Source of the DNA: Desulfurococcales archaeon
Lineage (GTDB): Archaea; Thermoproteota; Thermoprotei_A; Sulfolobales; NBVN01
Direction of reading: 5' to 3'
DNA: 32,713 bases
Assembly: GCA_015523295.1 (NCBI GenBank)
Contig: WAKQ01000022.1
Span: forward strand, 1 to 32,713
Made by a program: the position numbers and the translations under genes
The notes under the pieces: generated by a model
Database searches by the model: none
What the model was told of the DNA's origin: nothing
Seen by the model: only the letters and a program-made list of their open reading frames with translations
Shown: one piece after another, positions 11,653 to 15,374 of the stretch
Layout of the letters: every line of letters begins with the position of its first letter
How positions within the stretch are numbered: the stretch's first letter is position 1

Positions 11653-11765
11653 TGGCGCCGGGGGCGGGATTTGAACCCGCGTGCCCCAAAGGGGCAGTGG
11701 GTCTCCTGCTTCAAAACCGGAAATAGACTCGAGCCCACCCCCTTGGACCGCTCGGGCACCCCGGC
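11653..11765 (-). tRNA. tRNA-Ser (anticodon CGA) with 25-nt intron, CCA encoded
   Basis: On the minus strand, the acceptor stem GCCGGGG/CCCCGGC, anticodon stem GTGGG/CCCAC, loop CTCGAGA (anticodon CGA), variable arm TGCCCC-TTT-GGGGCA and GCGGGTTCAAATCCCGC T arm are all present, with CCA at 11653-11655. The anticodon loop is interrupted by 25 nt (11703-11727) between positions 37 and 38, the canonical archaeal intron site. An open frame spanning this tRNA is not a gene. Confidence 0.95.
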
Positions 11766-13056: not shown

Positions 13057-14397
13057 GTGAGTGATGAAATAATCAGGGTCAGCACGGGAATCGACAAGCT
13101 TGATGCCGCTCTTCAGGGAGGCGTGCCTAAAGGCTCTTGGGTCGCAATAACGGGCGAGCCTGGTACAGGGAAGTCAATACTATGCATGCATTATGCTTGG
13201 GCTGGTCTGAAGGTAGGTGACCCTGTTATCTACGTAACCACGGAGGCGGAGTTCAGAGACGTTGTAAGGCAGGCACGCCAGTTCAGGATGTTTTTAGATG
13301 ATTATGAAATACATTACCTTGGCAGTAAAGCCCCGCTACGAAAACCCCAACTAGTTGTAGTCGATATATTTAGCCTGCTTAAGACTGCCAAACAGTTGAG
13401 TGCCGATGTTGAAGAGATCGATAAAAGCAGAAGGTATGCAGCCCTAGAAATTGACGTGTTGATCGCAGCTATTAGAGAAGCCTATAGAGTGCTAGGCCTG
13501 TTAGAGGGAGGTAGGCACTCACCCTCAAGGCATGTGAGGTTAATTATCGATTCCCTCTCAGCATTTTGGGCGGATAGGCCTGCCATGGCCAGAAGGTATT
13601 CCTATCAACTTAAAATAGCTACTCATAGAGAGAACGTTACCGCTTACCTCGTCTCGCAATATGCGATGACCACTAAAAGCGTATCTCCGGGAACCCCGAT
13701 CATCATAAGAGAAGATGGAAGAGTGAAGAGCATTCCCGTTGATGAGTGGAGTAGTAAGTTCTTCAGCAGGGGAGAGACCGGGGTAAAGGCTATACCTTAT
13801 AAGGCTTACACGCTTAGTTTTGACCCAATCAGAAAAGTGATAGAGTGGGATGAAGTCCTAGCGGTTGTGAAGCATTTTGAGAGGCGCCCCCTCATAAAAA
13901 TAGTAACAGAGGATGGTAGAGGGATCTTAGTTACAGAGGATCACAGTATCTACGCTGCACATGGAAATAAATACATACCAGTGAAGGCGGGAAGATTAAG
14001 GGCAGGTGACCTTCTACCGATACCTAAGTCCTCCATCATTGCAGATTCTGGAAACGTTGAAGGAGAAGTGGATACAGTGAAAATCTCAAGGATCTCTAAG
14101 GTCGACTTTAAGGGCTTCGTATACGATCTAAGCGTTCAAAAGAATCAGAACTTCCTAGCCGGACATAAACCGCTTATTGCTCATAACAGCACGTTCGGAT
14201 TTGGGCTTGAACATATAGCTGACGGTGTAATTCATCTCTGGACAGCAAATGTTGAGGAGGCTAAGGAAGTTCGAAGATTCCTCATCATTAAGAAAATGCG
14301 TATGACCAATCACTATGAGGGCGCTTTCAGACTCTACATAGTGCCTGGAAAGGGCATAGAACTGAGGCCTTTGGGTGGTGCCGCGGCCGGGATTTGA
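13057..14397 (+). CDS. KaiC/RecA-family ATPase interrupted by a mini-intein
   Basis: The host protein is a single-domain KaiC-like (COG0467) ATPase of 276 residues after splicing. It has Walker A GEPGTGKS (33-40), E64 in TTEAEF, Walker B RLIIDSLSAF (D165) and the strand AYLVSQYAMTTK. Residues 208-377 are an intein, and after it the fold resumes with STFGFGLEHIADGVIHLW. Archaeal KaiC-like proteins are signalling or regulatory ATPases of mostly unknown partners; nothing here fixes the role. GTG start, with GGGGGTGGGG just before it. The last eight codons lie inside the antisense tRNA-Glu gene, and the TGA stop is formed by its T-loop bases. Confidence 0.88.
   Translation: MSDEIIRVSTGIDKLDAALQGGVPKGSWVAITGEPGTGKSILCMHYAWAGLKVGDPVIYVTTEAEFRDVVRQARQFRMFLDDYEIHYLGSKAPLRKPQLVVVDIFSLLKTAKQLSADVEEIDKSRRYAALEIDVLIAAIREAYRVLGLLEGGRHSPSRHVRLIIDSLSAFWADRPAMARRYSYQLKIATHRENVTAYLVSQYAMTTKSVSPGTPIIIREDGRVKSIPVDEWSSKFFSRGETGVKAIPYKAYTLSFDPIRKVIEWDEVLAVVKHFERRPLIKIVTEDGRGILVTEDHSIYAAHGNKYIPVKAGRLRAGDLLPIPKSSIIADSGNVEGEVDTVKISRISKVDFKGFVYDLSVQKNQNFLAGHKPLIAHNSTFGFGLEHIADGVIHLWTANVEEAKEVRRFLIIKKMRMTNHYEGAFRLYIVPGKGIELRPLGGAAAGI
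13678..14187 (+). other. mini-intein (170 residues) in the KaiC-family ATPase
   Basis: In-frame protein-splicing element, residues 208-377. Block A begins SVSPGTPIIIREDG with Ser1 as nucleophile. Block B is ILVTEDHSIYAA with the T-x2-H motif, block F is GFVYDLSVQKNQNFLAG, and block G is PLIAHN followed by Ser+1. All residues for standard splicing (Ser1, block B His, penultimate His376, terminal Asn377, Ser+1) are present. At 170 residues, with no LAGLIDADG motif, there is no homing endonuclease, so it probably cannot spread by itself. Splice junctions Lys207/Ser208 and Asn377/Ser378 rebuild a sensible KaiC strand. The insertion lies in the loop after the RecA-fold strand that follows Walker B. 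Confidence 0.88.
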
Positions 14398-14481
14398 ACC
14401 CGGGTCACGGGCTCTCCACGCAGGCAACAGCGGGAACTGCACGAAAGGCCCGCATACTTGACCGGGCTATACTACCGCGGC
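14376..14481 (-). tRNA. tRNA-Glu (anticodon TTC) with 28-nt intron, CCA encoded
   Basis: Acceptor stem GCCGCGG/CCGCGGC, D arm with GCCCGGTCAAGTATGCGGGC, anticodon stem CGGGC/GCCCG with loop CTTTCGA (anticodon TTC), T arm CCCGGGTTCAAATCCCGG, and CCA at 14376-14378. A 28-nt intron (14414-14441) splits positions 37 and 38. The 3' end of the gene is antisense to the last 22 bp of the KaiC-family coding sequence. Confidence 0.95.
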
Positions 14482-15251: not shown

Positions 15252-15374
15252 TGGCGGGCCCGGGGGGATTTGAACCCCCGACATCCGGCGTCCCCGGAAA
15301 GGGGACCGCTAGAGCTTAGGAACCCCCGGGTCCTTTAGGAGGCCGGCGCTCTATCCTAGCTGAGCTACGGGCCC
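15252..15374 (-). tRNA. tRNA-Arg (anticodon CCT) with 45-nt intron, CCA encoded
   Basis: Acceptor stem GGGCCCG/CGGGCCC, D arm GCTCAGCTAGGATAGAGC, anticodon stem CCGGC/GCCGG with loop CTCCTAC (anticodon CCT), T arm GGGGGTTCAAATCCCCC, and CCA at 15252-15254. The intron of 45 nt (15291-15335) splits positions 37 and 38. It is the longest in the window and holds two hairpins, including GTCCCC/GGGGAC. A TATA-like CCTTAAAA at about 15401-15408 fits its promoter. Confidence 0.94.

Follow-up and report, generated by a model that had tools for sequence, protein, structure and literature searches.

An open reading frame in the window (the whole stretch of DNA analyzed here, 32,713 nucleotides of a Desulfurococcales archaeon) encodes an ATPase of the TIGR03881 family that is interrupted by a mini-intein of 170 amino acids. 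The frame opens with a GTG codon and runs for 446 codons to its stop without any internal stop codon. Sequence comparison and a structural model confirm the insert as a genuine class 1 mini-intein, for which splicing is predicted. We consider it very probable that an intein reached this RecA-fold ATPase by homing, lost its endonuclease by decay, and has since been retained. The coordinates are collected in Table 1.

Table 1. The interrupted ATPase gene and the parts of its intein (window positions).
Feature	Position	Strand	Basis
Precursor gene, KaiC_arch_4 (TIGR03881) ATPase plus intein, 446 aa	13057–14397	+	TIGR03881, 296.7 bits; PF06745 KaiC
N-extein, residues 1–207; Walker A GEPGTGKS (33–40); SQYAMTTK strand/loop at junction	13057–13677	+	Alignment to intein-less homologues, SSO2452
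Mini-intein, 170 aa, Ser1–Asn170 (precursor residues 208–377)	13678–14187	+	PF14890, TIGR01445, family alignment, modelled intein fold
Intein Ser1, N-terminal nucleophile	13678–13680	+	Invariant across 10 alleles at site
Intein block B, T-E-D-H	13933–13944	+	Alignment: Asp, His invariant; first position Thr or Ser
Intein C-terminal His-Asn	14182–14187	+	Invariant across 10 alleles at site
C-extein, starting at Ser+1 (STFGFGLEHIADG)	14188–14394	+	Ungapped against uninterrupted homologues

A preliminary description, made from the letters alone, had placed here a mini-intein with all splicing residues and without an endonuclease; its coordinates proved exact, and profiles, residues, and fold agree on the element. 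The excised insert scores 52 bits (E 8.7e-14) against the Pfam profile PF14890 Intein_splicing and 38 bits against the NCBIfam profile TIGR01445 intein_Nterm, above the respective cut-offs of 35.8 and 24.5 bits. A class 1 intein has Ser or Cys at its N-terminus, a TxxH motif, a terminal His-Asn, and Ser, Thr, or Cys at +1; the insert has Ser1, T86-E-D-H89 (block B), H169-N170, and Ser+1, together with V148-Y-D-L-S-V in block F. The endonuclease domain is absent from its 170 residues, as in mini-inteins generally, and no LAGLIDADG was found among the matches listed for the window protein and the insert (Pfam and NCBIfam profiles). Among solved sequences, the inteins of archaeal TFIIB, KlbA, and RadA come nearest to the insert. 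In an AlphaFold model the insert takes an intein fold, with a TM of about 0.8–0.87 (target length) to solved archaeal mini-inteins, and the host part matches SSO2452, the C-extein being modelled at low confidence. The mini-inteins of methanogen TFIIB provide both the best sequence match (5o9j, E 2.3e-13) and the best structural match (5o9i, E 1.2e-13), although their host protein and insertion site are unrelated.

The insertion point in the ATPase lies between K207 and S378 (junction TTK-STFGF). Pfam finds KaiC in the full precursor as two pieces flanking Intein_splicing (126.9 bits); when the insert is removed, one piece spans residues 8–267 (144.2 bits), which bears out the earlier statement that removal restores an uninterrupted KaiC strand and loop. 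The uninterrupted homologues that the preliminary description proposed to look for are indeed common and align across the junction without a gap, examples being G002, from the same genus, and the solved SSO2452. In other words, the insertion is in frame and missing from homologues, as is characteristic of class 1 inteins.

The host exceeds the curated NCBIfam cut-off for TIGR03881 KaiC_arch_4 (296.7 against 247.8 bits) and is thus a member of that family. Its best PDB match is SSO2452 (2w0m, E 5.7e-50), ungapped over the junction, and by sequence it is kin to this type of RadA paralogue (aRadC). PMC8708640 describes SSO2452 as a paralogue of RadA with the ability to bind ssDNA and to inhibit the formation of D-loops, and anti-recombinase activity is reported for it. 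The label “KaiC” is misleading, since a RadA paralogue is the closest relative with a solved structure; the host is probably not a clock protein, and a timekeeping role is not indicated. A scan of viral contigs with the precursor alignment returned no relatives, and a viral origin of the precursor was rejected.

It should be mentioned that the surroundings of the gene hold tRNA genes that ARAGORN missed. An intron-containing tRNA gene at 14379–14481 on the minus strand (Rfam, 52.2 bits), antiparallel to the ATPase frame, shares 19 bases with its 3' end; at the locus L061, the neighbouring tRNA begins just past the stop codon. Two more Rfam matches of 110–120 bases, at 11656–11765 and 15255–15374 (both minus strand), are tRNA genes that probably contain introns. 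The 5' end of an archaeal 16S rRNA gene lies at the contig edge (1–113, minus strand). Additional inteins in the same genome interrupt genes for type II/IV secretion ATPases (L003 1045–3147, L007 1–2772, and L005 682–3102, all minus strand), with at least two in one frame of 1349 residues (contig C4) and one in a frame of 807 residues (C19).

A close relative of the host is present in 40 of 214 genomes from the order, and in 11 of these 40 an intein occupies exactly the K207/S378 site. All inteins were read from assembled genomes, mostly MAGs. Ten are complete (G000, G001, G027, G005, G161, G156, G165, G015, G008, and G024), and that of G019 is partial, being cut by a contig end. Each of the complete inteins is a mini-intein of 158–220 residues without a full endonuclease, and Ser1, Asp-His, Tyr-Asp, His-Asn, and Ser+1 are invariant among them; in that of G024, about 50–60 additional residues stand where an endonuclease would usually lie and may be its remnant. 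The codons for the catalytic Ser residues switch between the AGC/AGT and TCA/TCT types from lineage to lineage at both junctions (L010–L012 versus the other alleles). The remaining relatives inspected, including G002, have an empty site. In the intein-rich clade of the window's family, the empty alleles have Gly or Ala at +1 (TTK-GTFGYG, TTR-ATYGFG, and TTG-ATFGYG); Ser is kept there by the empty alleles of most of the order's other lineages. Gly or Ala at +1 is unable to act as the splicing nucleophile, and the alleles that have them may have lost the intein and then drifted, or may be resistant to it.

Larger relatives of the intein were found in a more distant TIGR03881 subgroup, the gene of which is present in 116 of 211 genomes. 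Two of its members carry inteins at the same junction, that of G054 being about 455 residues long and that of G071 about 398. The intein of G054 matches PF14528 LAGLIDADG_3 at 25 bits; its endonuclease is probably dead, because the motifs (VSAGS and YAGGG) lack the acids. The peroxiredoxin of G054 is 100% identical to the A. pernix sequence, which matches PDB 2cv4, and we therefore take this genome to be Aeropyrum pernix, sequenced long ago, or a very close relative; its intein (G054:C1:494650-496824) is probably the InBase entry “Ape APE0745”. The A. pernix intein shares with the window the host family (359 bits to TIGR03881) and the insertion point (TTQ-SAFGW versus TTK-STFGF); it differs in its length and degenerate LAGLIDADG endonuclease, in a host of the more distant SSO2452-like subgroup, and in a splicing domain that is only distantly similar. 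At a greater distance within the phylum, the intein of G517 is 565 residues long (PF14528 LAGLIDADG_3, 43.9 bits), with both LAGLIDADG acids present (motifs YYVSEGS and YKGDGYI) and an apparently intact endonuclease; mini-inteins occur in G363 (196 residues) and G318 (195 residues). These three inteins begin one codon upstream (TT-SEAFGW or TT-SEAFGF), and the endonuclease allele of G517 may therefore represent a separate invasion. This series of endonuclease-bearing, decayed, and mini forms is the usual life cycle of homing followed by decay.

From the splicing residues, the empty alleles, the shared site, and the larger relatives, we infer the following course. The precursor would be translated as a single chain of 446 residues; Ser1 would begin an N–O acyl shift, Ser+1 would take over the N-extein, and Asn170 would cyclize, aided by His169, to release an ATPase of 276 residues. 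The insertion interrupts the loop that follows the conserved SQYA strand of the ATPase core, so without splicing the precursor is probably not active, and function would require excision of the intein. As for the history, an endonuclease-bearing intein would first have reached the site through homing, and its endonuclease would have decayed later, leaving the splicing domain, which may persist mainly because precise deletion is hard; mostly vertical descent, with an occasional transfer and an occasional loss, would have followed. One pair of loci, L071 and L072 (Ignisphaera), is interpretable for selection, synonymous sites being saturated in most pairs. Its intein has dN 0.152 and dS 0.88 (ratio about 0.17), and its exteins have dN 0.065 and dS 1.24 (ratio about 0.05). 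By this ratio the insert is kept under selection; it evolves faster than the host and yet is constrained, as expected if splicing must persist.

The preliminary description had suggested long vertical inheritance, which in its strict form means a single invasion in the ancestor of the order and only loss thereafter. Intein and host identities do correlate (Mantel rho 0.43, p 0.015), the clade of L010, L011, and L012 is the same in both trees, and as few as five state changes suffice on the host tree. However, the intein alignment rejects the topology of the host tree (AU p = 0.0225), a conflict that disappears once L013 is moved beside L071/L072 (p 0.116). The inteins of L013 and L071/L072 are 51–54% identical and their hosts 68–69%, whereas other inteins at this host identity are 27–38% identical to each other. 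Intein-bearing hosts do not form a single clade. A single clade of all inteins at the site is not rejected (p = 0.33, 0.32, and 0.49 with different sets), but common descent of all of them is not demonstrated by this, because the deep branches of the intein tree have poor resolution. With patchy presence and conflicting trees, simple long vertical inheritance is insufficient, and we regard its strict form as rather unlikely; descent is best read as mostly vertical, combined with one transfer or more and with several losses or independent gains.

A regulatory switch, in which splicing would answer temperature, redox state, or ssDNA and set the amount of active ATPase, seems to us somewhat less likely again. 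Mini-inteins hold the same site in several genera, the host is a RecA-fold ATPase akin to a RadA paralogue, and conditional splicing is reported for the mini-inteins in RadA of Pyrococcus horikoshii and Thermococcus sibericus (PMC5790916). These (4e2t and 2lqm) are likewise endonuclease-less, in a RecA-fold host, and of the same fold (TM 0.85 to 4e2t), but their insertion point is the P-loop of RadA (PMC5790916), whereas the present intein occupies the loop that follows the SQYA strand. Against the switch, close relatives such as G002 do without the intein, and the inteins diverge fast (24–50% identity in most pairs), with little kept outside the splicing blocks. No result here favours a regulatory role over the simple retention that we prefer. 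The more specific version, that this mini-intein lineage is kept in several crenarchaeal genera as a switch acting after translation on a RadA-paralogue anti-recombinase, is more doubtful still; if true, it would tie splicing to DNA repair or temperature. It is very improbable that the insert stays in the mature protein, whether as a host domain specific to the lineage or as a Hint/BIL-like domain that does not splice, given Ser+1 and the full set of splicing residues, the disruption of a core loop of a conserved ATPase, and empty alleles ungapped across the junction. No relatives were seen in which the insert forms part of the ordinary host protein, the case named beforehand as refuting.

The preliminary description knew of no intein at this KaiC site. 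We likewise found no description of one at the site or in a KaiC-type host in the open full texts searched, but the site is shared by 10 other genomes of the order and by Aeropyrum pernix. The element is therefore real but fairly ordinary, related archaea carrying inteins at the same or an adjacent site. In other words, the site is used repeatedly in the TIGR03881 family, and the mini-intein is undescribed in the open texts searched without being new in kind. At one or two adjacent codons, this family presents empty sites, an apparently intact endonuclease, decayed ones, a possible remnant, and many mini-inteins, a compact natural series of stages that makes it a good set for tracing homing and decay. 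The mini-inteins, which come from apparently heat-loving archaea (judged by named relatives), could also serve as splicing tools.
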